Assembly (NCBI RefSeq): GCF_003095655.1
Contig: NZ_CP029151.1
Location: forward strand, 701,501 to 765,500
Origin: Dokdonia sp. Dokd-P16
Lineage (GTDB): Bacteria; Bacteroidota; Bacteroidia; Flavobacteriales; Flavobacteriaceae
Length of the DNA: 64,000 nucleotides
Direction: 5' to 3'
Positions 2,657 through 15,177 of this stretch are shown here, one piece after another. Made by a program: the position numbers and the translations under genes. The notes beneath the pieces were generated by a model. That model did no database searches. It was not told where the DNA came from and worked only from the letters and a program-made list of their open reading frames with translations. Numbering within the stretch: position 1 is the stretch's first letter; every line of letters starts with the position of its first letter.

Positions 2657-2869
2657 TTAGTTACAGCCGCAGCCTCCTCCTGTTTTTCCTCCATTTGCAC
2701 CTACCGCTGCTTCTCTATAAGAATGTGCCGTTGTCACATTACGGTCACATTTCTTTTCTGAAAGAATCATGTCTGGGTCGTTTATATTGACCTTTTCATA
2801 TTCCTTAACTACAACACAGCTAGTTAAACTAATAGCTATAAGTGCAGTACACACTATTTTTTTAATCAT
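2657..2869 (-). CDS. DUF4266 small lipoprotein with C-terminal GGGCGCN
   Basis: 70 residues. The N-terminus MIKKIVCTALIAISLTSC is a lipoprotein signal peptide with lipobox LTSC, so the mature protein should be anchored by Cys18. The rest is short (VVVKEYEKVNINDPDM...) and ends in a glycine-rich tail with two cysteines, GGKTGGGCGCN; a further Cys lies at SEKKCDRN. This is the DUF4266 pattern. The start codon overlaps the apbE stop by 4 bp (ATGA), which indicates translational coupling. Function unknown. The Cys-rich tail next to a thioredoxin-like and a flavin-transferase gene suggests metal, thiol or flavin chemistry at the envelope, but that is inference. Confidence 0.85.
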   Translation of the reverse strand: MIKKIVCTALIAISLTSCVVVKEYEKVNINDPDMILSEKKCDRNVTTAHSYREAAVGANGGKTGGGCGCN

Positions 2870-3864
2870 ATTTTATCTATTTCAATATTCTTGGACTTGG
2901 TAATAACTCCTCTATCATCTATGATAATGCATTCTATCTTTGGCAACTGATTTATTCTATCTAGACCCGCTTCTTTACCCATTACAAATACAGAAGTCGC
3001 AAGAGCATCTGCAAGCTCTGCTGTAGGCGCAAAAACTGTAACACTAATAATACCGCTAGAGGGGTATCCTGATCGTGGGTCTATAATATGCGTGTATCTT
3101 TTACCATTAAAGTTTACAAACTTCTCATAATTACCAGAAGTTACTACGGCACCGTCTGTTATAGGTAGTAATGCAAATACTTTATTTTTATTCATTGGGT
3201 TTGTAATGGCGACTTTCCACTCGCTTCCATTTGGTTGCTTCCCCCAGGTGTTCATGTCTCCAGATGCGTTTATAATTCCAGAAGGCACTCCTTGCGCAAT
3301 AAGTAACGCTTTTGCCTTATCTGCCGCATAACCTTTACCTATACCTCCAAAACCAATTTTCATTCCTTCTAGTTTGAGGAATACGGTACTCTCATTTTTA
3401 TCTAACACAATATTATTGAATCCCACCTTTGCTACAGAGGTCATAATTTCAACTTCTGAAGGCATTACGTCCATACTGCCATCAAACTTCCAAATACGAT
3501 CCATTGACGCATAACTAATATCAAAAGCTCCATCAGTAAGTTTTGAAATCTTGATTGCTCTTTCTATTAAATTGAATAACTCTGTATCTACGCGCACAGG
3601 TTTAATTCCCGCGTTTCTATTAATGCTAGAAGTTTCAGAATTTGGATCCCAAGAGGAAATGAGTTTTTCTATTCTTGTGATTTCGGCTATGGCAACAGCT
3701 ATGCTTGCATTGCCTTGTGCTTCATCATTTGCCACCACTGTTATATCAAAACGACTCCCCATAAGCTTGAGCGTACGTTTATATGGCTGTTGTGCTGAGC
3801 ATAGCATAGAAAACAGCACGACCAGCAAAGTGATTTGTACTTTCAAATTATTTTGTAAATGCAT
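2866..3864 (-). CDS. apbE: ApbE-family FAD:protein FMN transferase
   Basis: 332 residues, the usual length. ApbE enzymes use FAD to attach FMN covalently to Ser/Thr of exported electron-transfer proteins. Visible family features: MGSRFDITV near the N-terminus, the helix KLISSWDPNSETSSINR, GFGGIGKGYAADKA, ASGDMNTWG, TSGNYEKFV, and the Mg/FAD site YTHIIDPRSGYP. A hydrophobic N-terminus (ITLLVVLFSMLCSAQQ) indicates export. It overlaps the thioredoxin-like gene by 17 bp and the DUF4266 gene by 4 bp. No RnfG/NqrC-type target is nearby, so the substrate may be a neighbour; the DUF3570 barrel is the obvious candidate. Confidence 0.93.
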   Translation of the reverse strand: MHLQNNLKVQITLLVVLFSMLCSAQQPYKRTLKLMGSRFDITVVANDEAQGNASIAVAIAEITRIEKLISSWDPNSETSSINRNAGIKPVRVDTELFNLIERAIKISKLTDGAFDISYASMDRIWKFDGSMDVMPSEVEIMTSVAKVGFNNIVLDKNESTVFLKLEGMKIGFGGIGKGYAADKAKALLIAQGVPSGIINASGDMNTWGKQPNGSEWKVAITNPMNKNKVFALLPITDGAVVTSGNYEKFVNFNGKRYTHIIDPRSGYPSSGIISVTVFAPTAELADALATSVFVMGKEAGLDRINQLPKIECIIIDDRGVITKSKNIEIDKI

Positions 3865-4288
3865 TTAATTCCTTGATATAGTTTTCTGGCGTGGTCTTTT
3901 TATAACTAGTCTCTCCTAGTACTTTACCCTTACCATCTAGCACCACTACAAATGGAAATATCCCGTTTGTATTATATGTTTCTGCTAGATGAGCATTTGC
4001 CTTAACTTGACTCTCTGATAATGCATTATTTTTCCTTCTAGGAAAATCTGCTTGAAGCATTACATAATGTCCTTTTGCATAATTTTTAAAAGCATCTGTA
4101 CTCCAGACTTCACGATCAAGCTTTATACAAGGTGCACACCAATCTGAGCCCTGAAAAACGAGAACTATGGGCTTGCTTTCTTTTAATGCAATAGCTTTTG
4201 CTTTTACAAAATCAGTTTGCCATTCTTGAGCACTTGCAGTCACTACAGAAGCAATGACAATTATTAATATTGATAAAATTTTTTTCAT
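3848..4288 (-). CDS. Exported thioredoxin-family protein (CAPC)
   Basis: 146 residues. Signal peptide MKKILSILIIVIASVVTASA, then a thioredoxin fold with active site SDWCAPCIKLDREVW (about residues 49-63) and the cis-proline strand GIFPFVVVLDGKGKVLG. It belongs to the thioredoxin_7/DsbD-gamma-like group that reduces or oxidises envelope thiols. First gene of the operon continuing into apbE, DUF4266 and DUF3570; the DUF4266 tail cysteines are a possible substrate. An Fnr-like inverted repeat lies about 58 bp before its start. Confidence 0.88.
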   Translation of the reverse strand: MKKILSILIIVIASVVTASAQEWQTDFVKAKAIALKESKPIVLVFQGSDWCAPCIKLDREVWSTDAFKNYAKGHYVMLQADFPRRKNNALSESQVKANAHLAETYNTNGIFPFVVVLDGKGKVLGETSYKKTTPENYIKELNAFTK

Positions 4289-4317
4289 AGTTTCATAATT
4301 GAGATAATATAATCTAT

Positions 4318-4359
4318 TAAACGTATTCTAATTGCACATCTTACATTGACATTTATCAA
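4318..4359 (-). promoter_or_regulatory. Fnr-like box and -7 element before the thioredoxin-apbE operon
   Basis: TTGACATTTATCAA at 4346-4359 matches the Fnr half-sites (TTGAT-N4-ATCAA) with one deviation. On the minus strand it is followed after 20 bp by TACGTTTA (4318-4325), close to the Bacteroidota -7 consensus TAnnTTTG. The operon start codon is at 4288. A Crp/Fnr regulator gene ends just beside it (4377). The spacing suggests activation from near -40; this is an inference from geometry. Confidence 0.5.
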
Positions 4360-4376
4360 CTTGCAGGCATACATAT

Positions 4377-5072
4377 TCAGCTAAAGTTTGCTACTTTGAC
4401 TAGACCATTATAATCTTTAATAAAAATGCTACTTCGCTTTGTTGTAATAAGGTTTTCTTCTTTAAAATCTTTAAGCATTCTCACGACAGACTCCATCGCG
4501 GTACCCACCATACTTGCCAGGTCTTCTCTATGAATACTAATTTCTGTTTCTAAGTTCTCGCTCTGTTTAAACTTACTTTCTAAAACAAGAAGGTTTAAGG
4601 CTGTGCGCTCCCTTACTGTATACTTTGCAAGAATTCTTGTAGCATTAAGAAAAACCCCAAACTCGTGGCTCAAATTTTTTAATAAGCGTCGTGATAATTC
4701 ATGCGACTTATCTACAGCGTTCATAAAGTCTTCCTTGGATATAAATACCACCTCGCAATCTGTAAGAGCCGCTGCCGAATCTGGATATAGCTCCTCACTC
4801 AATAATGCATGATAACCTAAGTACTCACCTTCCTTACAGATATAGAAAATATGTTCACTCCTAAGATGAGTATCTGTAAACTTCTTTACTTTCCCATCAT
4901 TAATTCTATATATACCTTCTGGTCTATCACCTTCTTTAAAAATGAGTTCTCCTGCCTTAAAAAAACTTACAACGCAATTTTTAGTAATGTCCTCACATAG
5001 CGTTGCTGGTAGTCCACACAGTAAATCTTCATTATTAAAACTGAATTTGTCGTGTAGAAATAAATTAGTCAT
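4377..5072 (-). CDS. Crp/Fnr-family transcription regulator
   Basis: 231 residues: cyclic-nucleotide-binding-like beta barrel (about 25-115), long dimerisation helix (about 118-150) and C-terminal winged helix. The recognition helix GTAMESVVRMLKDF (about 190-203) keeps Glu194 and Arg198 at the positions that Fnr (E..SR) and Crp (E..GR) use to read TTGA or TGTGA half-sites. Five cysteines occur (19, 26, 33, 79, 106); C19-x6-C26-x6-C33 is not the E. coli Fnr iron-sulfur spacing, but ligand or redox sensing through them is possible. Encoded directly upstream of the operon with a TTGAC-N4-ATCAA box, its probable target. Confidence 0.85.
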   Translation of the reverse strand: MTNLFLHDKFSFNNEDLLCGLPATLCEDITKNCVVSFFKAGELIFKEGDRPEGIYRINDGKVKKFTDTHLRSEHIFYICKEGEYLGYHALLSEELYPDSAAALTDCEVVFISKEDFMNAVDKSHELSRRLLKNLSHEFGVFLNATRILAKYTVRERTALNLLVLESKFKQSENLETEISIHREDLASMVGTAMESVVRMLKDFKEENLITTKRSSIFIKDYNGLVKVANFS

Positions 5073-5857: not shown

Positions 5858-5907
5858 CTTTTGTATAGTATAAATACCAAAGGTTAAACTTTATTATCTT
5901 AAAATTA

Positions 5908-5921
5908 GCTTTCGCGAAAGC
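5908..5921. repeat. GCTTTCGCGAAAGC palindrome, copy 3
   Basis: Exact core in the 239-bp divergent intergenic region, 50 bp upstream of the VIT-family start codon. Confidence 0.95.
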
Positions 5922-6032
5922 GTAACTACAACATTAATATATCTTATTAATAATCCATGTTTAACCTAGGTGGTTTGCGCAACTCTAATTAATCTCTTTG
6001 ATGAAGATAACTAATTTCAAATACTACAGTAT

Positions 6033-6076
6033 GTAACATAAGTTACCGTGAGCATATTTTAATAGGTTTAATTTTA
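6033..6076 (+). promoter_or_regulatory. Sulfur-regulon operator A and -7 box (DUF983-crp operon)
   Basis: Operator GTAACATAAGTTAC at 6033-6046, exactly 22 bp, then -7 box TAATTTTA at 6069-6076. The first gene starts at 6097. Because the second gene of the unit is the Crp-family regulator, this would be an autoregulatory site. Confidence 0.8.
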
Positions 6077-6096
6077 CATAAAAAACTTAATTGTCC

Positions 6097-6480
6097 ATGG
6101 GTAAATCGATAATATATAGCATCTTATTTTTAAAGTGTCCTCAATGCAGAGAAGGCGAATTTCTGGAAGCACACCCTTATAAGCTTTCTAACATGAATAA
6201 GGTTAAAAAGAACTGTCCTAAATGCCAATTAAAATACAGCATTGAACCTAGTTTTTATACAGGCTCTATGTACGTATCTTACGGTGTAGGTATTGCGGTT
6301 GCCGTGGCCGTTTATGTTTTAACCCTTATTTTTGGTTTAGATTTTGGACCTACAGGTATTCTAACGAGTATCGTCATTGCATTAATCATCACAATGCCAT
6401 ACATAGGAGCCGTATCAAAATCTATTTGGGCTCATTTCTTTTTTAAATATGACCCTAACATTCTTAAAAAAGCCGCATAA
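6097..6480 (+). CDS. DUF983 membrane protein with zinc-ribbon cysteines
   Basis: About 127 residues from ATG at 6097 (a TTG six bases earlier is less likely). Two CxxC pairs near the N-terminus (LKCPQCREG and NCPKCQLKY) form a probable zinc ribbon; then SIEPSFYTGSMYVSYGVGIA leads into two or three membrane segments (about 56-78 and 86-106). This is the DUF983 pattern; function unknown. Its stop codon overlaps the regulator's ATG by one base (TAATG), so the two are co-translated. A paralogue with the same YKIEPSF...MYVSY core lies at 50070. Confidence 0.85.
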   Translation: MGKSIIYSILFLKCPQCREGEFLEAHPYKLSNMNKVKKNCPKCQLKYSIEPSFYTGSMYVSYGVGIAVAVAVYVLTLIFGLDFGPTGILTSIVIALIITMPYIGAVSKSIWAHFFFKYDPNILKKAA

Positions 6481-7112
6481 TGATTCAAGAACTAAAAGCC
6501 AGTTACGGTCATCTCTTTGAAGATGCACTTATCAATGAAATACTCCAGGTAGGCACTTACAAGGAGGTTCCTGAAGGTTTTAAACTCATGGAAATAGGTG
6601 GCTATGTAAAAGGAATGCCGCTACTGGTCTCTGGGGTAATAAAAGTATTGAGAGAAGATAAAAATGGAGACGAGCTTCTCCTCTACTATCTAGAAAAAGG
6701 AGATACCTGCTCTATGACAATGACTTGTTGCATGGGGCAGACTAAGAGTGAAATAGGAGCAATTGCAGAGACAGACACCAAGCTCATTATGGTGCCTGTA
6801 CAGAAAATGGAAGAATGGACGGCTAAGTACAAGTCTTGGAGAAATTTTGTTTTTGAGAGTTACCACAACCGCCTTAACGAGTTATTACAAACTCTTGACA
6901 GTATCGCTTTTGATAACATGGATGAACGCCTCTTAAACTACTTGAAAGAAAAGGCGAGAGTAAACGATGAACAAATTATTCATAACACACATCAAGAGAT
7001 CGCTTATGAATTACACACCTCAAGAGTAGTGGTATCAAGACTTCTTAAAAAATTAGAGAACTTAGGAAAAATTGAATTACACAGAAATAATATCCAAATT
7101 ATAGATTTATAA
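6480..7112 (+). CDS. Crp-family regulator, proposed master of the sulfur/oxidant regulon
   Basis: 210 residues: cupin-like sensor domain (about 20-115), dimer helix (about 118-145) and winged-helix domain with recognition helix TSRVVVSRLLKKLE (about 180-193). The Glu used by Fnr/Crp is replaced by Val183 while Ser186 and Arg187 remain, consistent with a half-site other than TTGAT. The sensor domain carries a cysteine cluster, DTCSMTMTCCMG (Cys77, Cys83, Cys84), a plausible sensor of persulfide or peroxide. The gene sits inside the set of six GTAAC-N4-GTTAC operators and its own operon carries one. Inference: it binds those sites and activates the cluster. Confidence 0.85.
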   Translation: MIQELKASYGHLFEDALINEILQVGTYKEVPEGFKLMEIGGYVKGMPLLVSGVIKVLREDKNGDELLLYYLEKGDTCSMTMTCCMGQTKSEIGAIAETDTKLIMVPVQKMEEWTAKYKSWRNFVFESYHNRLNELLQTLDSIAFDNMDERLLNYLKEKARVNDEQIIHNTHQEIAYELHTSRVVVSRLLKKLENLGKIELHRNNIQIIDL

Positions 7113-7119
7113 CCCTTAA

Positions 7120-7163
7120 GTAACTTGGGTTACACCTAGGTCGTTATAGCAAGTCTATTTTTG
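7120..7163 (+). promoter_or_regulatory. Sulfur-regulon operator B and -7 box (TauE)
   Basis: GTAACTTGGGTTAC at 7120-7133, 22-bp spacer, -7 box TATTTTTG at 7156-7163 (a perfect TAnnTTTG). The TauE gene starts 24 bp later. Confidence 0.85.
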
Positions 7164-7187
7164 TCTCTCAATACAAAGTAGTTTATA

Positions 7188-8000
7188 ATGGAGATACTAG
7201 AAATACTTGGATATATAAGCGCCTTAATCATCGGCATTTCTTTAGGTTTAATAGGTGGTGGTGGTTCTATACTCGCCGTTCCTGTTCTAGCTTACTTATT
7301 TTCTGTAAATGAAAAGGTTGCTACTGCATATTCGTTATTTATTGTAGGAGCAAGTGCGCTTGTAGGTGGTTTTAAACAACACCTTAAAGGCTATGTAGAC
7401 TGGAGAACGGCAATTGTTTTTGGACTACCCGCTATTGTAGGAGTTACCGTTGTGAGACATTATGTAGTACCTGCATTACCAGATATTTTATTTACCACGG
7501 GCGATTTTGAGTTTACACGTAGGATGGCAATGTTTGGCCTCTTTGCGGTACTAATGATTCCTGCAGCCTTTTCTATGCTCAAAAAAAGAAAGGATAATAA
7601 ACAAAAAGGGGACGGTACTGTCACATACAATTACTCACTTATTTTAATAGAAGGCCTCATCGTAGGAGGTATTACTGGAATGATAGGCGCTGGAGGAGGT
7701 TTTCTCATTATTCCCGCTCTTGTTATACTAGCAAATGTAGAAATGAAAGTTGCGGTAGGTACTTCTTTAATCATTATCGCTTTTAAATCATTAATGGGCT
7801 TCTTTCTAGGAGATGCATTAACCATGAATATAGATTGGCTATTTCTTTCCATATTTACAGGCATATCATTTATAGGGATTTTTATAGGCAGTTACCTCAG
7901 TAATTTTATAGATGGAGACAAATTAAAAAGAGGTTTTGGCTACTTCATATTTGTAATGGCAATCTTCATTTTTTATATGGAGTTTTTTGTGAAACATTAA
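7188..8000 (+). CDS. TauE/SafE-family sulfur-anion exporter
   Basis: 270 residues, seven or eight membrane segments in two homologous halves, each with the family's glycine-rich motif: GISLGLIGGGGSILAVPVLAYL (trimmed core GLIGGGGSILAVP) in the first and GMIGAGGGFLIIPALV in the second. TauE/SafE proteins export sulfite, sulfoacetate or related organosulfur anions. It has its own operator-promoter and precedes the CstB-like gene, the same pairing as tauE and cstB in the Staphylococcus aureus cst locus, where the transporter is thought to remove sulfite or thiosulfate made during persulfide clearance. Confidence 0.9.
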   Translation: MEILEILGYISALIIGISLGLIGGGGSILAVPVLAYLFSVNEKVATAYSLFIVGASALVGGFKQHLKGYVDWRTAIVFGLPAIVGVTVVRHYVVPALPDILFTTGDFEFTRRMAMFGLFAVLMIPAAFSMLKKRKDNKQKGDGTVTYNYSLILIEGLIVGGITGMIGAGGGFLIIPALVILANVEMKVAVGTSLIIIAFKSLMGFFLGDALTMNIDWLFLSIFTGISFIGIFIGSYLSNFIDGDKLKRGFGYFIFVMAIFIFYMEFFVKH

Positions 8001-8044
8001 TCATCGCCTCCCTTTTTTTTAAAAATTTAAAATACTACCCCTAT

Positions 8045-8088
8045 GTAACTTATGTTACTGAAAGAAACATTTTAATCGTCTAATTTTA
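8045..8088 (+). promoter_or_regulatory. Sulfur-regulon operator C and -7 box (CstB-like)
   Basis: GTAACTTATGTTAC at 8045-8058, 22 bp, -7 box TAATTTTA at 8081-8088. The start codon is at 8140, giving a leader of about 45 nt that contains palindrome copy 4. Confidence 0.85.
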
Positions 8089-8108
8089 CGTTATTAATAG
8101 TTGAGTCC

Positions 8109-8122
8109 GCTTTCGCGAAAGC
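8109..8122. repeat. GCTTTCGCGAAAGC palindrome, copy 4 (5' leader)
   Basis: Exact core (16 bp with flanks) between the promoter of the CstB-like gene and its ATG, ending 17 bp before the start codon. It must be transcribed as a leader hairpin. Confidence 0.95.
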
Positions 8123-8139
8123 GTAAAAAAATTAAAAAT

Positions 8140-9546
8140 ATGAAGGTTGAACAAATATATACTGGTTGTCTAGCTCAGGGAGCTTATTACATTGAAAGTA
8201 ATGGCGAAGTAGCAATTATTGATCCTTTGAGAGAGGTTACACCGTATTTAAATAGGGCAAAACAAGATGATGCAAAAATCAAATATATTTTTGAAACTCA
8301 TTTTCATGCAGACTTTGTAAGTGGTCACGTAACCTTATCAAAGGCGACAGGTGCTCCTATTGTTTTTGGACCAAATGCAAACCCAAGTTTTGATGCTATT
8401 ATCGCAACAGATAGACAAGAGTTTTCATTAGGAGATGTGACTATCATAGCCTTGCACACGCCTGGTCATACTATGGAGAGCACCACGTACCTTCTTAAGG
8501 ATAAAGATGGTAAGGATCATGCGATTTTTAGCGGAGACACCCTATTTCTAGGCGACGTGGGAAGACCTGATCTGGCTCAGAAAATGGGCGAACTCACAGA
8601 AAAAGATCTTGCTGGTTTTCTTTATGACAGTTTACGCAATAAAATTATGCCGCTAGCAGATGACGTTACGGTATACCCTGCGCATGGTGCTGGATCTGCT
8701 TGCGGAAAGAATATGATGAAAGAAACCGTAGACACACTAGGGAATCAAAAGCAAATGAATTATGCACTACGTGCAGATATGACAAAGGAAGAATTTATAG
8801 CAGAAGTGATAGATGGTTTATTACCACCGCCTCAGTACTTCCCTCTTAATGTCAAAATGAATAAAGAGGGTTATGAAGATATAGATGAAGTTCTAAAAAG
8901 AGGGACACAAGCATTATCTCCAGAAGCTTTTGAAGCTGCGGCAAATGAGACAGGAGCTATTGTACTAGACGTGCGTCATCAAGATAAGTTTGCCAAAGGG
9001 CATATCCCTAGATCTATATTTATAGGTATAGATGGTAGTTTTGCTCCATGGGTAGGCGCCTTAATTGCAGATGTAAAACAACCCTTATTACTAGTTACAG
9101 AACCGGGTCGCGAGAAAGAAACGATTACTAGATTATCTCGCGTAGGCTTTGATAACACCCTAGGATACTTAAAAGGTGGATTTGATGCATGGAGGGAAGC
9201 TGCCATGGAATATGATACCGTAAGCTCTATTACAGCAGCCACATTTAAAAGCGAATTAGAAAAAGGTGACAAATCTGTTTTTGATGTGCGCAAAGAAAGT
9301 GAGTACTTATCAGAACATGTACTTGGGGCAAATAACACGCCACTAGATTTCTTAAATGATCATCTAGCCGAGTTTCCAGATGAGCCATTTTATGTGCATT
9401 GTGCAGGAGGTTACAGAAGTATGATAGCCTCATCTATATTAAAAAGTAGAGGAATACATAACTTAATAGATGTGCAAGGCGGTTTTAAAGACATAAAAGA
9501 AACTGGAGCACCGGTGTCAGAATTTGTATGTCCTACTACGCTCTAG
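8140..9546 (+). CDS. CstB-like persulfide dioxygenase-rhodanese fusion
   Basis: 468 residues from ATG 8140; an in-frame TTG at 8101 would translate through the leader palindrome and is unlikely. Domain 1 (about 1-245) is a metallo-beta-lactamase-fold persulfide dioxygenase: THFHADFVSGH (His54, His56, Asp58), HTPGHTMES, FSGDTLFLGDVGRPDL and YPAHGAGSACG give the mononuclear-iron ligands. Domain 2 (about 265-355) is a rhodanese fold whose catalytic-loop Cys is replaced (VTEPGREKE), so inactive. Domain 3 (about 370-465) is an active rhodanese with VHCAGGYRS. This MBL/pseudo-rhodanese/rhodanese order is that of S. aureus CstB, which converts persulfides to thiosulfate. It has its own operator and promoter. 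Confidence 0.92.
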   Translation: MKVEQIYTGCLAQGAYYIESNGEVAIIDPLREVTPYLNRAKQDDAKIKYIFETHFHADFVSGHVTLSKATGAPIVFGPNANPSFDAIIATDRQEFSLGDVTIIALHTPGHTMESTTYLLKDKDGKDHAIFSGDTLFLGDVGRPDLAQKMGELTEKDLAGFLYDSLRNKIMPLADDVTVYPAHGAGSACGKNMMKETVDTLGNQKQMNYALRADMTKEEFIAEVIDGLLPPPQYFPLNVKMNKEGYEDIDEVLKRGTQALSPEAFEAAANETGAIVLDVRHQDKFAKGHIPRSIFIGIDGSFAPWVGALIADVKQPLLLVTEPGREKETITRLSRVGFDNTLGYLKGGFDAWREAAMEYDTVSSITAATFKSELEKGDKSVFDVRKESEYLSEHVLGANNTPLDFLNDHLAEFPDEPFYVHCAGGYRSMIASSILKSRGIHNLIDVQGGFKDIKETGAPVSEFVCPTTL

Positions 9547-9595
9547 GGTATTGTAAAACACGTATATCCTAGCTGCAAAATGATTATCTAGGGTG

Positions 9596-9664
9596 ATGAA
9601 AGAAAAATGCTGTTTAAGCAAAGACATTCATAGAGTGATGACTATGGTCTTATTGATTGGTTAG
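9596..9664 (+). CDS. Possible 22-residue small protein
   Basis: ATG at 9596 opens MKEKCCLSKDIHRVMTMVLLIG and stops at 9664, two bases before a strong hairpin. It lies 49 bp after the CstB-like gene and would be carried on the same transcript. A CC pair and a short hydrophobic tail are its only features. Length alone gives little support; it may be chance. Confidence 0.25.
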   Translation: MKEKCCLSKDIHRVMTMVLLIG

Positions 9665-9666
9665 TA

Positions 9667-9702
9667 AAAAACGAGGTTATCAGTAATGATAATCTCGTTT
9701 TT
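9667..9702 (+). terminator. Intrinsic terminator after the CstB-like gene
   Basis: 16-bp arms at 9667-9682 and 9687-9702 with a GTAA loop and a single G-T position; the right arm ends in five T residues. It separates the CstB-like unit from operator D, 16 bp further on. Confidence 0.85.
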
Positions 9703-9717
9703 AATTTAACACTGTAT

Positions 9718-9761
9718 GTAACTTAAGTTACTGGCAGTGGGAAACTAGAGGACTATCTTTA
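9718..9761 (+). promoter_or_regulatory. Sulfur-regulon operator D and -7 box (rhodanese)
   Basis: GTAACTTAAGTTAC at 9718-9731 (perfect palindrome), 22 bp, -7 box TATCTTTA at 9754-9761. The rhodanese ATG is at 9773. Confidence 0.85.
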
Positions 9762-9772
9762 ATAAAAAAATA

Positions 9773-10135
9773 ATGAAATCAACAATATTTATTATGTCCA
9801 TATTATCATTTCTCTTTGGAGGTAAGCCTCAACAAAATAATATCACTGTTCTAAGCACAGCCGACTTTAAAACCGCTATCACAGATAAAAAAGTACAGCT
9901 AGTAGATGTTAGAACTCAAAATGAGTTTGACAGTGGTCATATACAAAAGGCAGTAAACATTGATATTTTTGATAAAACCAATTTTATTTCTGCTTTCAAC
10001 TCTTATAATAAAGAAGAGCCAGTTTATATCTACTGTAGATCTGGAAACAGGAGTAAGAAAGCCTCACAGACTTTAGACAGCTTAGGGTTCAAGCAGATTT
10101 TTGATTTAAAAGGAGGATTTATGGCTTGGCATTAA
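9773..10135 (+). CDS. Single-domain rhodanese, exported or anchored
   Basis: 120 residues. A short hydrophobic N-terminus (FIMSILSFLFGG) precedes a compact rhodanese: VQLVDVRTQNEFDSGHI, active loop IYCRSGNRSKKA with the sulfur-carrying Cys, and FDLKGGFMAW at the end. Catalyses sulfane-sulfur transfer, for instance between thiosulfate or glutathione persulfide and thiols. It has its own operator and may read through into the HMA and DUF202 genes. The N-terminus could be an uncleaved anchor rather than a signal peptide. Confidence 0.9.
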   Translation: MKSTIFIMSILSFLFGGKPQQNNITVLSTADFKTAITDKKVQLVDVRTQNEFDSGHIQKAVNIDIFDKTNFISAFNSYNKEEPVYIYCRSGNRSKKASQTLDSLGFKQIFDLKGGFMAWH

Positions 10136-10184
10136 TGCTTATTCATCTGTTTAAAAACAGGTTTATTCTATTACATTTAATTAA

Positions 10185-10206
10185 TTACGCTTTCGCGAAA
10201 GCGTAA
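10185..10206. repeat. GCTTTCGCGAAAGC palindrome, copy 5
   Basis: Exact core at 10189-10202 extended to a perfect 22-bp palindrome by TTAC/GTAA flanks. It lies about 50 bp downstream of the rhodanese stop codon, in the 138-bp gap before the HMA gene. Confidence 0.95.
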
Positions 10207-10273
10207 CACAGAACTCTCAAGGCTCCTACATCAAGCTGCCTCTTTAGATAATTATTTACTCAATACATATCTC

Positions 10274-10540
10274 ATGAAAACATCAATTATAGTACAAAAC
10301 CTAAAATGCGGTGGTTGTGCAAAAACAATCACATCAAAAATATCTGAACTTGATTATATATCAAACGTACAAGTGAACACCGAAACTGCTACTGTTTCCT
10401 TTACTACCCAAGGGACAGAAGACGCATTAAGTGTAAAAGAAAAGCTCAAGTCATTAGGCTACCCATCTATTGAAGATGAAAATGGAATGCTCTCTAAGGC
10501 AAAATCTTTTGTAAGTTGCGCTACCGGAAAAATGAAATGA
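10274..10540 (+). CDS. Heavy-metal-associated (HMA) domain protein, copper-chaperone-like
   Basis: 88 residues: one ferredoxin-like HMA domain with metal motif LKCGGCAKTI (CxxC at about 12-15) and VQVNTETATVSF, followed by a short tail with another Cys (SFVSCATGKMK). Such proteins bind Cu(I) or other soft metals in the cytosol. In a sulfane-sulfur cluster it may buffer copper when thiol pools change, but that is inference. The DUF202 gene follows 3 bp later. No GTAAC operator lies directly before it. Confidence 0.85.
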   Translation: MKTSIIVQNLKCGGCAKTITSKISELDYISNVQVNTETATVSFTTQGTEDALSVKEKLKSLGYPSIEDENGMLSKAKSFVSCATGKMK

Positions 10541-10543
10541 CTT

Positions 10544-10804
10544 ATGAAAAAATTATCACTATCACTCACTGACAAACTAGCGATAGACAGAACAAAACTT
10601 GCAAATGAGCGTACTTTCCTAGCATACTTTAGAACTTTTATTGTGTTTTTGAGTTCTGGTCTAGCTATTATCAAACTTGACATTCTCACCGAAATAAAGT
10701 GGATAGGATCTATGCTTAACATCATAGCCCCCGTAGTGTTTTTAATAGGCCTGATACGTTTTTTATATGTGAAAAGAAGAATTAGGAAATACTACGCAGC
10801 ATAA
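10544..10804 (+). CDS. DUF202 membrane protein
   Basis: 86 residues. The DUF202 signature LANERTFLAYFRTFI (about 19-33) leads into two membrane helices (about 30-45 and 55-74) and a basic C-terminus KRRIRKYY. Function unknown. Probably co-transcribed with the HMA gene; the transcript ends at the hairpin at 10918-10945. Confidence 0.88.
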   Translation: MKKLSLSLTDKLAIDRTKLANERTFLAYFRTFIVFLSSGLAIIKLDILTEIKWIGSMLNIIAPVVFLIGLIRFLYVKRRIRKYYAA

Positions 10805-10917
10805 ACCAACAACTATTTTAGTAACATTGGATGCTTAAAAAATACATGTTACCCTACCTATACTGGAACAAAATGATGAAGGGAGACAACGTATAACCCC
10901 CTCCTATCGCGTTAAAA

Positions 10918-10945
10918 AAGAGACAAAATATCAATTTTGTCTCTT
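10918..10945 (+). terminator. Intrinsic terminator after DUF202
   Basis: Perfect 12-bp stem (arms 10918-10929 and 10934-10945, loop ATCA) with A-rich and T-rich outer ends. It isolates the rhodanese-HMA-DUF202 unit from cysE, which must then have its own promoter in 10946-10988; I could not identify one with confidence. Confidence 0.85.
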
Positions 10946-10988
10946 ATTCATTAACTAATGTTTTATAATTACCTACAGAGATATAAAA

Positions 10989-11774
10989 ATGAATTATACC
11001 GATTTAATTACATCTATCAATAAACAGAAAAAGGAAATAAAAGTTTCCATTCTCTTGAAGCAAGAATCGCAACGATTTACACAGTTGTTATTCAATACAC
11101 TGTTTGATAATGGAACCGATACAGAAAAGACTCTTGAGACTCTTGAAGCCTTGTTTATTACCATAAGAGATCTTGCTTGTCCAGAGGTTAAAGGTACACC
11201 GTGTAAAAAATGGGATGACTTTACTCTCGTAATACCTACGCTCTTTTGTAGTTTAAAAAAAGATGCAGAGGCTATTTATAGCAATGATCCCGCTGCACAA
11301 TCTCTAGAAGAAGTGTACCTAGCCTACCCTGGTTTTTTTGCTATTGCGATTTATAGAATGGCAAGAGAATTTTATGAGTTAGGTTTACCACTCATACCAC
11401 GACTAATGACAGAATATGCTCACCAACTCACAGGTATTGATATTCATCCGGGAGCGCAAATAGGAGAATCCTTTTTTATAGACCATGGTACTGGAGTCGT
11501 GATAGGCGAGACCGCAGAGATACGTAACAATGTAAAGTTATACCAAGGTGTAACTCTTGGCGCACTTACCGTAAATAAGGGATTAAAGAGCATAAAAAGA
11601 CACCCTACCATAGAAGACAATGTAACCATATATGCAAATGCAACAATTCTAGGTGGAATTACAGTTATAGGAAAAGATAGTATCATAGGAGGTAACACCT
11701 GGGTTACAAAAACAGTACCTCAGAACTCTATAGTACTCCACAATCCTAAAGTAGAAATTCGCAATAAAAAATAA
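10989..11774 (+). CDS. cysE: Serine O-acetyltransferase
   Basis: 261 residues. N-terminal helical domain (about 1-150), then left-handed beta-helix hexapeptide repeats with the SAT signature DIHPGAQIGESFFIDHGTG (His pair of the active site), GVVIGETAEIRNNVKLYQGVT and IGGNTWVTKTVPQNS. Makes O-acetylserine from serine and acetyl-CoA, the carbon acceptor for cysteine synthesis. The beginning resembles the SAT type with a long N-terminal helical bundle common in Bacteroidota. cysM follows after 7 bp. No GTAAC operator is seen before it. Confidence 0.93.
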   Translation: MNYTDLITSINKQKKEIKVSILLKQESQRFTQLLFNTLFDNGTDTEKTLETLEALFITIRDLACPEVKGTPCKKWDDFTLVIPTLFCSLKKDAEAIYSNDPAAQSLEEVYLAYPGFFAIAIYRMAREFYELGLPLIPRLMTEYAHQLTGIDIHPGAQIGESFFIDHGTGVVIGETAEIRNNVKLYQGVTLGALTVNKGLKSIKRHPTIEDNVTIYANATILGGITVIGKDSIIGGNTWVTKTVPQNSIVLHNPKVEIRNKK

Positions 11775-11781
11775 ATAAGCA

Positions 11782-12660
11782 ATGAATAAGACACTCTTAG
11801 ATCAAATAGGAAACACTCCCATAGTGAAGTCTATAGCATTAAATACCAACCCTAATGTGAGTTTGTATTTTAAACTAGAAGGTGATAACCCGGGAGGTAG
11901 TGTAAAAGACAGAGCTGCTTATAATATGATAAAAAGTGCGCTAGACAGCGGTGCTATAGATAAAAGCACAAAGCTTATTGAGGCCACTAGTGGTAATACC
12001 GGTATAGCACTTGCCATGATTGCTGCTATTTATGGGCTAGAAATAGAACTCGTAATGCCTTCAAAGGCAACTAAGGAACGTGTGCAAACCATGAGAGCAT
12101 ATGGAGCAAAAGTTACACTTCACCCTGACGGGATAGAAGGAGCAAGGGATTATGCTATTGATAAGGTTGAAAATGAAAGATACTTCTCTTTTAACCAGTT
12201 TTCAAATGATCATAACTGGCAAGCTCATTATAAAACCACAGGACCAGAAATATGGAGAGACACTCAAGGTGAGGTGACTCATTTTGTATCTTCTATGGGA
12301 ACTACGGGAACTATTATGGGAACCTCAACATTTTTAAAAGAGCAGAATAGTAACATCCAGATTGTAGGTGTACAACCCACAGATGGATCTAGCATACCTG
12401 GTATACGTAAATGGCCACAAGAATATTTACCAAAGATATTTAATGCGTCAAAAGTAGATAGAACAATCGAGGTAAGCCGTGACGAATCTATTGCCATGGC
12501 TAGAAGGCTAGCACAAGAAGAGGGAATACTAGCAGGCATGAGTAGCGGTGGCGCAACTACGGCTGCATTAAAACTAGCGAGCGAACTAGAAAGCGGAGTC
12601 ATAGTAAGTATTATTTGTGATCGCGGAGATAGATATCTTTCGTCAGAGTTATTTGAATAG
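11782..12660 (+). CDS. cysM: Cysteine synthase, CysM type
   Basis: 292 residues, PLP-dependent beta-family fold. PLP lysine in NPGGSVKDRAAYNM (about 39-44), cofactor loop EATSGNTGIALAM, GTTGTIMGTS phosphate loop and a C-terminal SGGATTAAL. The short length and the EGDNPGGSVKDRAA context favour CysM over CysK. CysM enzymes accept thiosulfate as well as sulfide, giving S-sulfocysteine, which would suit the nearby persulfide dioxygenase (thiosulfate maker) and YeeE/YedE-type importer. Operon with cysE. Confidence 0.9.
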   Translation: MNKTLLDQIGNTPIVKSIALNTNPNVSLYFKLEGDNPGGSVKDRAAYNMIKSALDSGAIDKSTKLIEATSGNTGIALAMIAAIYGLEIELVMPSKATKERVQTMRAYGAKVTLHPDGIEGARDYAIDKVENERYFSFNQFSNDHNWQAHYKTTGPEIWRDTQGEVTHFVSSMGTTGTIMGTSTFLKEQNSNIQIVGVQPTDGSSIPGIRKWPQEYLPKIFNASKVDRTIEVSRDESIAMARRLAQEEGILAGMSSGGATTAALKLASELESGVIVSIICDRGDRYLSSELFE

Positions 12661-12708
12661 TGATTGCTTACTTCATACTGTAATTTAAATAATGGTGATG
12701 GCAATTAC

Positions 12709-12722
12709 GCTTTCGCGAAAGC
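12709..12722. repeat. GCTTTCGCGAAAGC palindrome, copy 6
   Basis: Exact core, extended to about 26 bp with one mismatch by AATTA/TAATT flanks. It lies 48 bp after the cysM stop codon and 45 bp before operator E. Confidence 0.95.
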
Positions 12723-12767
12723 TTAATTGTCATCATTTGTTAAAATTATTTTAAAAAAATCAAGTAT

Positions 12768-12811
12768 GTAACATAGGTTACTAAGCCACCTGAATCTATA
12801 GCGTATCTTTA
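12768..12811 (+). promoter_or_regulatory. Sulfur-regulon operator E and -7 box (peroxiredoxin-dps)
   Basis: GTAACATAGGTTAC at 12768-12781, 22 bp, -7 box TATCTTTA at 12804-12811. The peroxiredoxin ATG is at 12845. Confidence 0.85.
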
Positions 12812-12844
12812 TATTACAAAACATAACGATAAATATATACTATT

Positions 12845-13510
12845 ATGGATAAAGAAAACCTATTGCCAGAACAAGTAATCTCAATGCCAAGAATAGGCGA
12901 TACTGCACCAGATTTTGAAGCAGTTACGACTAAGGGAACTATTAAAATGTCTGAGTTTGCAAAAGATAAGTGGACAGTGATGTTCTCTCACCCTGCAGAT
13001 TTTACTCCAGTGTGTACCACAGAAATGAGTGGTTTCGCAATTAGAAAACCAGAATTTGACGCCTTAAATACGGAGCTCCTAGGTCTTAGTATAGACAGTA
13101 TACACGCTCACTTAGGATGGGTTCAAAACGTAAGAGAAAATACAGGTGTTTACTTTGATTTTCCTATCATAGCAGATATTGATATGAAGGTATCAAAGCT
13201 ATACGGGATGTTACAGCCTAACGAGAGTGAGACTGCAGCAGTAAGAGCCGTTTTCTTTATCGATCCTGCCAAAAAAATTCGTCTTATTATGTATTATCCG
13301 CTTAATGTAGGTCGTAATATGGATGAAATTCTAAGAGCGCTAGATGCACTGCAAATGTCAGATAAGCATAAGGTATCTATGCCACTAGACTGGAAAAGAG
13401 GCGATCAAGTAATATGCTCTCCACCTAAAACATTAGATGCACTAAACGAAAGACTTGCAGACGATTCTGTAGAAAAAGTTACTTGGTATCTCGCAAAAAA
13501 GAGTATCTAA
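12845..13510 (+). CDS. 1-Cys peroxiredoxin (Prx6-like)
   Basis: 221 residues. Peroxidatic Cys57 in SHPADFTPVCTTEMSGFA; Arg in RAVFFIDPAKKIRLIMYYPLNVGRN; long C-terminal arm with DWKRGDQVICSPPKTLDA, as in the Prx6/AhpC_TSA plus 1-cysPrx_C architecture. Reduces H2O2, organic peroxides and possibly hydropersulfides. Its operator places it under the same control as the sulfane-sulfur genes, and dps follows 57 bp later. Confidence 0.93.
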   Translation: MDKENLLPEQVISMPRIGDTAPDFEAVTTKGTIKMSEFAKDKWTVMFSHPADFTPVCTTEMSGFAIRKPEFDALNTELLGLSIDSIHAHLGWVQNVRENTGVYFDFPIIADIDMKVSKLYGMLQPNESETAAVRAVFFIDPAKKIRLIMYYPLNVGRNMDEILRALDALQMSDKHKVSMPLDWKRGDQVICSPPKTLDALNERLADDSVEKVTWYLAKKSI

Positions 13511-13567
13511 ACCGTGATTATTCCCACTTTATAGTATAATAAAAAACAACTATACAATATTTACATT

Positions 13568-14041
13568 ATGAGCAATACAAACAACATAGGTTTAGACATT
13601 TCAACATCTCAAACCACAGCAACACAACTTAACGACTTACTTTCTAACTACCAGATCTTTTATATGAACCTAAGAGGTTTTCACTGGAATATTACCGGAA
13701 AGAAATTTTTTGAACTACACGTAAAGTTTGAAGAGTTATATAATGATGCACTTCTTAAAGTAGATGAAATCGCAGAACGTGTACTTACACTAAGTGCTAC
13801 ACCTACACATTCATTTAAGGATTACTTAAACAGCTCAGACATAGAAGCTGCCAAAAATGTAACTGATGGTGAAGAGGCTATAGATAACATCCTTGAATCT
13901 TTAAAGGTGTTATTACAAAAGGAAAGAACAATACTTACAACTGCTGGAGATGGTGGTGATGAAGGTACTGTTGCTTTAATGAGTGATTACATCACACAAC
14001 AAGAAAAGCTAGTGTGGATGCTCTCTGCATACCGTAACTAG
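13568..14041 (+). CDS. dps: Dps-family ferritin-like DNA-protection protein
   Basis: 157 residues, four-helix bundle. The intersubunit ferroxidase residues are visible in NLRGFHWNITGKKFFELHVKF (core FHWNITGKKFFELH) and EELYNDALLKVDEIAERV. Oxidises and stores Fe(II) with peroxide in a 12-mer. Probably co-transcribed with the peroxiredoxin; the transcript ends at the hairpin at 14093-14121. Confidence 0.95.
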   Translation: MSNTNNIGLDISTSQTTATQLNDLLSNYQIFYMNLRGFHWNITGKKFFELHVKFEELYNDALLKVDEIAERVLTLSATPTHSFKDYLNSSDIEAAKNVTDGEEAIDNILESLKVLLQKERTILTTAGDGGDEGTVALMSDYITQQEKLVWMLSAYRN

Positions 14042-14092
14042 ATGACCACAGTTATTAACAGTGTGTTTTAAAAAAGTATAATCCTCACATTA

Positions 14093-14121
14093 AAAGCACA
14101 CTAGATATCCTAGTGTGCTTT
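14093..14121 (+). terminator. Intrinsic terminator after dps
   Basis: Perfect 12-bp stem (14093-14104 with 14110-14121, loop ATATC) followed by a T-rich tract. It precedes operator F by 23 bp. Confidence 0.88.
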
Positions 14122-14144
14122 CTTTATTACAATCAGCTATTTGA

Positions 14145-14188
14145 GTAACCTAGGTTACAAATAAGCTTGCTTTAAAAGTTGATATTTG
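14145..14188 (+). promoter_or_regulatory. Sulfur-regulon operator F and -7 box (YeeE/YedE pair)
   Basis: GTAACCTAGGTTAC at 14145-14158 (perfect palindrome), 22 bp, -7 box GATATTTG at 14181-14188, which departs from TAnnTTTG only at its first base. The start codon is at 14203. Confidence 0.82.
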
Positions 14189-14202: not shown

Positions 14203-14760
14203 ATGGATTGGATTTTCTCCCCCTGGCCTTGGTATGTATCAGGACCCATCATTGCTTTCATCATGTTTTTACTTATTATGGTAGGTAAGAATTTTGGAAT
14301 GTCTTCTAACTTAAGAACGATGTGCACTATCTGCGGCGCAGGAAATAAAGCAGATTTTTTCAAATTTGATTGGAAATCACAACGATGGAATCTTACTGTC
14401 GTTCTAGGTGCTATTATAGGCGGTTATATAGGGTCTCAAAAGCTATCTACAGACATTGCAGTAGCTATTAATCCAGATACAATAGAAAACCTCAACAACC
14501 TAGGCTTTAATAGTGCGGGAAAAGCCTACCTGCCTACAGAATTATTTGACACAAGCGCATTACTAAGTTTTAAAAATCTCGCCTTACTAACTATAGGTGG
14601 GTTTCTAGTGGGCTTCGGCGCTAGATATGCGGGTGGATGTACTTCTGGTCACGCTATCTCTGGTTTAAGTAATTTACAACTACCATCACTCATCGCCGTT
14701 ATAGGTTTTTTTATAGGCGGCCTGTTTATGATTCACGTGCTATTCCCCTTTATATTTTAA
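14203..14760 (+). CDS. YeeE/YedE-family transporter, subunit 1
   Basis: 185 residues from ATG 14203; the in-frame TTG at 14179 overlaps the -7 box and is excluded. Four or five membrane helices; the conserved cysteine motif RYAGGCTSGHAISGL (about 140-155) matches the thiosulfate-relaying Cys motifs of the TsuA/YeeE transporter. An N-terminal CTICGAGNKADFFKFDW holds two further cysteines. In single-chain YeeE both halves are fused; here they are separate genes 3 bp apart. Likely imports thiosulfate or another sulfane-sulfur compound. Confidence 0.88.
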   Translation: MDWIFSPWPWYVSGPIIAFIMFLLIMVGKNFGMSSNLRTMCTICGAGNKADFFKFDWKSQRWNLTVVLGAIIGGYIGSQKLSTDIAVAINPDTIENLNNLGFNSAGKAYLPTELFDTSALLSFKNLALLTIGGFLVGFGARYAGGCTSGHAISGLSNLQLPSLIAVIGFFIGGLFMIHVLFPFIF

Positions 14761-14763
14761 AAC

Positions 14764-15177
14764 ATGAGAACACTTATATATTTATTAATCGGTATTCTTT
14801 TTGGGATAACTATGTTTAAATCTGAAGCTGCTTCGTGGTTTCGTATTTATGAAATGTTCAAGTTTGAGTCATTTCACATGTATGGGATTATAGGGTCTGC
14901 ACTCGTTATAGGCATCATAGTAGTACAACTTATTAAACGTCTCAACATCAAATCATTTTATGGTGAGACGATTCATTTTCACCCTAAGGCAAAGAGTTTT
15001 AGTCGTTACATGATAGGTGGCGTTTTATTTGGTTTAGGCTGGGCACTAGCAGGAGCTTGCCCAGGACCTATGTTTACGCTAGTAGGAGCGGGATTTGTTC
15101 CTATTCTAGTAGTAATCGGTGCTTCTTTATTAGGCACCTATGTGTATGGATTAATAAAGGATAAACTACCTCACTAG
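14764..15177 (+). CDS. YeeE/YedE-family transporter, subunit 2 (DUF6691-like)
   Basis: 137 residues, four membrane helices. The second-half cysteine motif is GLGWALAGACPGPMFTLVGAG (core AGACPGP, about 100). It ends convergent to the aspartoacylase-like gene, with palindrome copy 7 between. Together with subunit 1 it should form one sulfur-compound transporter. Confidence 0.88.
   Translation: MRTLIYLLIGILFGITMFKSEAASWFRIYEMFKFESFHMYGIIGSALVIGIIVVQLIKRLNIKSFYGETIHFHPKAKSFSRYMIGGVLFGLGWALAGACPGPMFTLVGAGFVPILVVIGASLLGTYVYGLIKDKLPH

Follow-up and report, generated by a model that had tools for sequence, protein, structure and literature searches.

In Staphylococcus, persulfide dioxygenase and rhodanese genes form the target set of the CstR/CstB system, and CstR, like SqrR/BigR and YrkD, is a repressor of the CsoR or ArsR type. 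Promoters of the Bacteroidota carry a -7 box, TAnnTTTG, instead of the -10 element of sigma-70. Within the Crp/Fnr superfamily, altered-specificity mutants of Crp at Glu181 were reportedly described by Ebright and co-workers in 1984. In Crp, the fourth G:C pair of the half-site is contacted by Arg185 and Glu181 (PMC11253593), loss of Glu181 removing a contact to cytosine, and Rodionov and co-workers found residues 180 and 181 to correlate with the DNA motif across the superfamily (PMC1274295). Here I analysed a 64,000-nucleotide stretch of DNA from the marine flavobacterium Dokdonia sp. Dokd-P16 (hereafter the window; C1:701501-765500 of a 3.62-Mb, single-contig genome), in which six copies of the palindrome GTAAC-N4-GTTAC stand before genes of predicted sulfur metabolism, in the company of a gene for a Crp/Fnr-family regulator, here named Reg1 (6480-7112).

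The evidence is sequence analysis throughout, and the roles of operators and regulators are predicted. On this evidence, Reg1 is probably a class II activator of a six-promoter regulon for sulfane sulfur. Fetched loci are labelled with L-numbers, and the genome of the window is G000.

Six operators at a fixed distance from their promoters

All six operators and their -7 boxes lie on the + strand. The first, GTAACATAAGTTAC (6033..6046), is followed by the box TAATTTTA (6069-6076) and is predicted to serve the operon of a DUF983 gene and the regulator; the second, GTAACTTGGGTTAC (7120..7133), with the box TATTTTTG (7156-7163), would serve a TauE gene, and the third, GTAACTTATGTTAC (8045..8058), again with TAATTTTA (8081-8088), a CstB-like gene. 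Operators 4 (GTAACTTAAGTTAC, 9718..9731) and 5 (GTAACATAGGTTAC, 12768..12781) share the box TATCTTTA, at 9754-9761 before a rhodanese gene and at 12804-12811 before a peroxiredoxin gene, and operator 6, GTAACCTAGGTTAC (14145..14158), precedes a YeeE/YedE pair with the box GATATTTG (14181-14188). The first-pass annotation had listed these palindromes and their boxes at a constant spacing of 22 bp, and both observations hold: the palindromes are all exact, with zero mismatches, within 8.1 kb, and each of them is separated from its box by exactly 22 bp. The consensus TAnnTTTR is matched by five of the six boxes, that of operator 6 having one mismatch. Start codons follow the boxes at 11 to 51 nt.

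Dinucleotide shuffles yielded on average 0.05 copies of GTAAC-N4-GTTAC, with a maximum of one. The window holds 243 perfect 5-N4-5 palindromes (both strands counted, each site on each strand), and TAnnTTTR at 22 bp accompanies solely five of the six operators among them, while every other distance from 10 to 40 bp is represented at most twice. Given how densely boxes occur in the six intergenic regions, and allowing for 61 distances, the probability that five of six operators share one box distance is ∼3e-9. The shuffles, the distance statistics and the palindrome census together rule out a chance origin of the six sites.

Many equally good sites at random spacing across the genome would have spoken against the proposal. 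This is not the case, as GTAAC-N4-GTTAC occurs only 13 times in the 3.62 Mb, and the seven copies other than the six operators all lie inside stop-to-stop frames (195 to 999 codons), and on neither strand is a box found 22 bp away from them. When the genome was scanned with the whole 44-bp pattern at up to three mismatches, the six window sites came out on top, five with no mismatch and one with a single mismatch; no additional regulon site was found elsewhere in the genome at 0 to 1 mismatch, all other matches having at least two. With three mismatches, the reversed control pattern matched 74 and 51 times and the real one 47 and 53 times; weak matches are therefore noise, and only exact or near-exact sites were used in this genome.

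Conservation of the operator-box arrangement

In order to follow the arrangement across genera, I used 199 family genomes, one per genus and most likely Flavobacteriaceae, with Reg1-type regulators called at E <= 1e-30, which includes paralogues of such similarity. Such regulators were found in 166 of the 199 genomes. The exact 44-bp pattern occurs at 396 sites in 138 of the 199, compared to six sites overall for the reversed pattern. Of these, 394 are found in 136 of the 166 genomes possessing a Reg1-type regulator and 2 in two of the 33 lacking one, a contrast that is partly confounded, many of the regulator-less genomes being small or incomplete.

A set of 80 family loci was fetched, of which L127 ends short of its regulator and is excluded from regulator counts (n=79). 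The 80 loci contain 143 palindromes; for 112 of them TAnnTTTR lies 21-23 bp away on one side or both (100 at exactly 22), and 111 of these 112 are intergenic. Counted per strand, the box is found 103 times at 22 bp, 12 times at 21 bp and twice at 23 bp, whereas no other distance between 0 and 80 is seen more than twice. The spacer is thus conserved in length, and its letters carry little information. Of the 103 promoters, 3 have a TTG at the -33 position, at 17 to 22 nt from the box, and 100 have none. In L104 (16612), L116 (3151) and L134 (17069), with coordinates on the + strand of the locus, a single palindrome is flanked on either side by a box at exactly 22 bp and apparently serves two divergent promoters; two further palindromes, in L114 and L170, have two-sided boxes at 21-23 bp. 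The class II Crp/Fnr geometry proposed in the first-pass annotation is supported by the conservation across genera, by a spacer kept in length only, by the near absence of the -33 TTG and by the co-variation of regulator and operator described below.

In L109, L110, L112, L113, L114, L118, L119, L121, L135 and L150, half-sites of the ATGAC or ATGAT type form perfect palindromes, also 22 bp from a -7 box. An FNR-like paralogue, for example that encoded at 4377-5072 of the window, may use these as operators.

Residue 181 of the regulator and the operator base

Five Crp-type helix-turn-helix proteins above the Pfam cut-off are encoded in the genome. One of them, Reg2 (C1:130235-130849), is 39% identical to Reg1 but has an Arg-Glu recognition helix like that of E. 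coli Crp. Directly 3' of its gene is a different palindrome, GTGAC-N4-GTCAC, again 22 bp before a box, TACATTTG (C1:130235-130895; L047 4236-4896), and the next same-strand open reading frame (ORF) of at least 80 aa, about 0.4 kb on, encodes a SulP permease. A site right behind the gene is found in 18/18 Reg2 loci, 16 being GTGA/GTGA and two mixed. The third Crp-type regulator, with an Arg-Pro helix (C1:2904320-2905040; L048), is followed by GTAAG-N4-CTTAC, 22 bp and TAGATTTA, as though the 22-bp rule applied to Crp-type activators throughout the phylum.

I then compared residue 181 (Crp numbering) with the operator base for 120 regulators: 40 of the 79 from the family, 62 from 60 phylum loci (31 Val, 31 Glu) and 18 Reg2. 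Sites near regulators were defined as GTRA-N6-TYAC with a box at 21-23 bp and at most one mismatch, and counted as site-box pairs, in which a palindrome boxed on both sides counts twice. Val-181 regulators have 78 AA, 14 mixed and no GG pairs, and Ile-181 has one AA pair. For Glu-181 there are 33 GG, 8 mixed and 2 AA pairs, both AA pairs being at L338, where a Val-type regulator is also present. Taking one best site for each of the 78 regulators that have one, Val/Ile-181 is accompanied by 39 AA, 3 mixed and no GG sites, and Glu-181 by 30 GG, 6 mixed and no AA. The same trend is seen with perfect sites having a box at 22 bp: the 20-kb loci of 79 Val/Ile regulators contain 99 GTAAC and 7 GTGAC sites, and the 18 Reg2 loci 12 GTGAC and 1 GTAAC (after removal of an L047 duplicate).

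In a tree from which the recognition helix was excluded, Val and Glu switch six times over the 120 rows. For the 69 rows that have a symmetric site, six changes of the residue (one of these Val/Ile) and five of the operator are counted, and well-supported branches force at least three of these events. That a Crp-type protein binds the operators, as the first-pass annotation had proposed, is thus well argued by the co-variation of regulator residue and operator base. The exact GTGAC pattern is also present in 26 of the 181 genomes without a Reg2 hit, which suggests that other regulators may read GTGAC there.

Family membership and cysteines of Reg1

Reg1 scores as a Crp/Fnr-superfamily protein (PF00027 30.2 bits, cut-off 27.5; PF13545 38.9 bits, cut-off 27), with the recognition helix SRVVVSR. 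A profile search against solved structures returned 3dv8, a Crp/Fnr protein of unknown function, first, followed by NtcA and CRP. Identity with a named member was rejected in each case considered. For cAMP-activated CRP proper, the PRK11753 score is 50.1 bits against a cut-off of 266, and for NtcA the NCBIfam model gives 32.1 bits against 244.95. FNR has four cysteines for its 4Fe-4S cluster, and C77, C83 and C84 are the sole cysteines of Reg1. HcpR2 does not fit because residue 181 is Val and no hcp is found among the genes behind the six operators.

The three cysteines (CX5CC) are invariant in 15 aligned Reg1-type proteins. A Cys at the position of Crp residue 70 is found in 110/110 Val/Ile regulators and in 49/50 Glu rows, the exception being a truncated ORF, and the full CX5CC in 85/110 and 12/50 respectively; Reg2-type paralogues retain just the first of the three. 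The aligner places gaps at Crp 72, and the cysteines were therefore positioned from the ungapped G-D-x-C against Crp G67-D68-F69-I70. They fall where Crp has its cAMP cassette (G71-E72 to R82-S83), and the residues holding cAMP are mostly lost: in Val/Ile regulators, Crp position 127 is Leu/Met in 107/110 and position 128 Leu in 104/110, and E72 is not kept. A conserved Cys at the place of the cAMP cassette suggests thiol sensing of sulfane sulfur.

Genes behind the operators

The first-pass annotation had given the regulator itself as the target of the first operator. The regulator gene does belong to this operon, but as its second gene: the first is a small membrane protein gene of the DUF983 family (6097..6480, two dots between gene coordinates marking the + strand from here on; PF06170 24.3 bits, cut-off 22.6), whose stop overlaps the start of the regulator gene at 6480 (6480..7112; PF00027 and PF13545 above cut-off). 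Next come a TauE/SafE-family exporter (7188..8000; PF01925, E 7e-39) and the CstB-like fusion of a metallo-beta-lactamase domain and two rhodanese stretches (8140..9546; PF00753 and PF00581). The product of the latter has the metallo-beta-lactamase domain followed by rhodanese domains over its full length, as a predicted CstB-type protein should, and matches the structures 3tp9 (E 8.6e-65) and 3r2u (E 5.7e-51).

A single-domain rhodanese (9773..10135; PF00581, E 1.2e-22) is followed by genes for a heavy-metal-associated (HMA) domain protein (10274..10540; PF00403) and a DUF202 membrane protein (10544..10804; PF02656). Behind these are a hexapeptide transferase (10989-11774) and a PALP enzyme (11782-12660), neither with an operator; they are presumably serine acetyltransferase and cysteine synthase. 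The peroxiredoxin (12845..13510; PF00578 and PF10417, that is, AhpC/TSA with a 1-cysPrx C-terminal domain; NF009668 273 bits, cut-off 211) precedes a Dps/ferritin-like protein gene without an operator of its own (13568..14041; PF00210). The series ends with the two halves of YeeE/YedE, predicted to act in sulfur transport, at 14203..14760 (PF04143, E 2.4e-16) and 14764..15177 (PF20398, or DUF6691, and PF04143).

A separate iterated palindrome, GCTTTCGCGAAAGC, has 808 copies in this genome, between 369 and 905 per genome in 12 further genomes from the genus, and none in 8 genomes from other families of the order; its reversed control gave 0. In the window it occurs at 16 places within three mismatches of an 18-mer, for example 112-129, 2594-2611, 8106-8125 and 10186-10205, one copy standing between the box and the start codon of the CstB-like gene.

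Targets in related loci

For target counts in the family loci, I required a palindrome and a box with at most one mismatch each, 21-23 bp apart, within 260 bp upstream of an ORF. Such a site and box precede 48/76 CstB-like, 28/51 TauE, 23/44 YeeE1, 10/11 peroxiredoxin-like, 6/25 rhodanese, 12/79 Reg1 and 1/16 HMA ORFs, as well as 5/5 DUF983 ORFs of other loci. In the same loci none was found before YeeE2 (0/43) or CysK (0/5). Shuffled upstream regions gave one site with box in total. Other ORFs account for 42/910, among them overlapping false frames and further targets.

When the box rule was relaxed, 131 sites could be traced downstream: for 89 the next gene is a counterpart of a window gene, for 9 there is none and for 33 it is another ORF. 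These 33 ORFs form 13 clusters, and one representative was scanned for each of 10 clusters. The extra targets include seven sulfide:quinone oxidoreductases (SQR; E 2e-104 to mitochondrial SQR in the PDB, below the cut-off of the NCBIfam SQR model) and four molybdopterin oxidoreductases that are closest to the sulfite dehydrogenases SorA/SorT/SoxC but below model cut-offs. There are in addition three SulP permeases, three proteins with a Tll0287-like heme-type domain, two cytochrome bd subunits I, two FeS/NrfD proteins, one thioredoxin and one protein without a family. Together, SQR, the CstB-like protein, rhodanese, TauE and sulfite dehydrogenase would form a pathway from sulfide over persulfide to sulfite and sulfate.

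A sulfur/oxidant regulon had been proposed in the first reading of the window. The SQR and sulfite-dehydrogenase-like targets strengthen its sulfur part; the oxidant part is weaker, as the peroxiredoxin site is conserved (10/11) but the dps gene merely follows peroxiredoxin in the window, and no Dps gene is present in the 79 listed family loci. Elsewhere in the phylum, Dps is found about 1.8 kb behind a Glu-181 regulator in 4/60 loci (L323, L335, L340, L342), which independently hints at a connection with Dps.

At YeeE promoters, the -7 box, at the usual 22 bp, is frequently weak in its first half (TTnnTTTG, GATATTTG, CATCTTTG). Of the 12 YeeE1 sites whose palindrome is exact, 8 have such a box, as if the weakness were kept. 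These boxes were seen at 14181-14188 in the window and in L102, L103, L105, L107, L110, L123, L126 and L140.

SQR is present in 22/80 named loci, and a relic is left in the window, where 10828..10893 (+) reads as the last 22 codons of a lost gene, 90.9% identical to SQR residues 415-436. L177, an uncultured Dokdonia sp. metagenome-assembled genome whose regulator is 99% identical to Reg1, has an intact SQR frame of 438 aa (10156-11472), with GTAACTTGAGTTAC, 22 bp and TATTTTTA upstream. The window and L177 align in four blocks of the same order, and three stretches are found in L177 alone: ∼1.6 kb (2726 to 4396), including a further CstB-like copy; ∼0.25 kb (5889 to 6222); and ∼4.0 kb (7397 to 11400), containing SQR and its operator. 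Since the window retains the SQR relic, the ∼4.0-kb difference is a loss in its line, and this genome has probably lost SQR together with a seventh operator.

A model for the regulon and its alternatives

In the model proposed here, a Reg1 dimer would bind GTAAC-N4-GTTAC at the six promoters, including that of its own operon, which it would also switch on. The operator, ending 22 bp before the -7 box, would replace the -33 element and lead to class II activation. Residue 181 would set the half-site base, Val reading A and Glu reading G, and Cys77, with Cys83-Cys84, would be the sensor, most likely of a persulfide or another thiol oxidant. The regulon would be compact, within ∼9.2 kb, and handle reactive sulfur: YeeE/YedE would take up or exchange sulfur compounds, the rhodaneses and the CstB-like persulfide dioxygenase would transfer and oxidize sulfane sulfur, and TauE would export sulfite. 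Peroxiredoxin would contribute peroxide defence, with Dps perhaps expressed by read-through. More tentatively, and as a possibility that falls somewhat short of probable, Reg1 may found a Bacteroidota-wide branch of the Crp/Fnr superfamily in which a Cys sensor of sulfane sulfur replaces the cAMP cassette, activation is direct rather than by derepression, and paralogues are kept apart by the Val/Glu-181 and A/G operator switch. With similar reserve, CX5CC would hold for most of the flavobacterial part of such a branch, and the process activated would be the oxidation of sulfide and persulfide.

Several observations weigh against this model. The start codons of rhodanese and YeeE lie just 11 and 14 nt past their boxes, so that the leaders are very short or the true starts are further downstream. 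In the clade around L145-L168 the sites of most loci are imperfect, often GTAAC-N4-ATTAC or -ATCAC (e.g. GTAACAATTATTAC) at 21 or 22 bp, and some of these loci show no site beside the regulator; by the one-best-site count, 42 of the 120 regulators have no nearby site. Independent switches are few, and the co-variation is not significant on their basis: all three independent well-supported pairs agree (five pairs when all branches are used), for a sign-test p of 0.25. The seven GTGAC sites in Val/Ile loci imply that the code is a preference, or that other regulators act there. CX5CC is present in just 85 of the 110 Val/Ile regulators, the target classes are not preceded by operators throughout (TauE 28/51, CstB-like 48/76, rhodanese 6/25, Reg1 12/79), and five outer-membrane efflux and two fatty-acid-hydroxylase-like targets have no plain link to sulfur.

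The alternative that survives best differs from the model in the signal alone: Reg1 would be a class II activator responding to nitric oxide, peroxide, heme or a small metabolite. I consider this less probable than sulfane sulfur, though a serious contender. Crp/Fnr proteins bind many effectors, HcpR being described as a heme/NO regulator (PMC12750200), peroxiredoxin is a conserved target, cytochrome bd and other genes are targets in some relatives, and Reg2-type paralogues keep the first cysteine alone. However, most of the targets that can be named act on reduced or sulfane sulfur, SQR and the sulfite-dehydrogenase-like enzyme of relatives among them, and the sole cysteines of Reg1 sit in the former cAMP cassette.

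It is unlikely that Reg1 is mainly a repressor released by sulfane sulfur, in the manner of CstR, BigR/SqrR or the SoxR type. The operator does cover the -33 region, and several sulfane-sulfur regulators are described as repressors, namely YrkD, BigR, the ArsR-type SoxR and sHdrR, MarR-family proteins and PerR; others are not plain repressors, and OxyR activates. A repressor has no need of one exact spacing, whereas a predicted centre near -41, fixed spacing and no -33 element correspond to the layout of a class II activator such as NtcA (PMC3898017), and the two-sided 22-bp boxes of L104, L116 and L134 suit such an activator as well.

Still more doubtful is the binding of the six operators by another Crp-family paralogue, such as the HcpR2-like Arg-Pro regulator at C1:2904470. 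The genome does encode this paralogue, and the motif predicted for HcpR2, which has Pro at 181, is exactly GTAACnnnnGTTAC, Bacteroides included (Rodionov et al. 2005, PMC1274295). The Arg-Pro paralogue nonetheless has its own palindrome behind it, GTAAG-N4-CTTAC at 22 bp, while GTAAC sites adjoin Reg1 in many genera and accompany Reg1-type genes, and give way to GTGA-type sites where the neighbouring regulator has Glu-181. Finally, the 808 copies of GCTTTCGCGAAAGC might invite one to see the palindromes, too, as something iterated or structural rather than as operators; this is ruled out by the rarity of GTAAC-N4-GTTAC (13 genome-wide), by the grouping of six boxed copies before genes in one locus, by spacers kept in length and not in letters, and by co-occurrence with the regulator.

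Reg1 as a class II activator for sulfane sulfur would be of interest beyond this genome, the Bacteroidota being heterotrophs that are common in sea water and in sediments. The locus offers a testable regulon, in a genus that is not known to be pathogenic, and a promoter rule (operator, 22 bp, TAnnTTTG) by which flavobacterial genomes can be scanned. It also provides the Crp/Fnr family with a natural set of specificity changes, each of one residue and one base.

Comparison with known systems

A literature search for the operator pattern listed papers that seemed unrelated by their titles, and the precedent surfaced through HcpR. No sulfane-sulfur regulator of the Bacteroidota stood out in the titles and abstract beginnings of the open-licence PMC articles listed.

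The nearest layout is that of NtcA, a member of the Crp/Fnr superfamily in cyanobacteria. Its box, GTA-N8-TAC, is contained in GTAAC-N4-GTTAC, is canonically found at ∼-41.5 with a -10 box TAN3T, and is separated from the latter by 22 nt in one promoter (PMC3898017); all six operators have GTA-N8-TAC about 22 nt before their box, as in this description (PMC3898017). The NtcA chain in 2xgx also has Arg-Val in its recognition helix. Unlike the regulon proposed here, NtcA serves nitrogen/2-oxoglutarate control. NtcA is not known to have a cysteine motif comparable to that of Reg1.

With class II promoters of E. coli CRP, the locus shares the domain make-up of the regulator, the palindrome, an expected centre near -41, and a half-site read by residues 180, 181 and 185 (PMC11253593). 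CRP differs in Glu181 and its GTGA half-site, and its cAMP residues are not kept in Reg1. The SqrR/BigR-Blh and YrkD systems resemble the locus in their targets, which include persulfide dioxygenase/rhodanese and related sulfur genes (PMC5823870, PMC9918477), but in contrast to CstR, SqrR/BigR and YrkD, Reg1 is of the Crp/Fnr type with predicted activator geometry. HcpR2 has the predicted motif GTAACnnnnGTTAC and the same correlation of residues 180/181 with the motif (PMC1274295), while it has Pro at 181 where Reg1 has Val, and its predicted targets, hcp, are absent behind the six operators. Given the precedents of Crp and HcpR2, the operator class, the geometry and the residue-181 code were already known and this regulon is another instance of them; the regulon itself appears to be new, and its type of sensor is possibly new as well.

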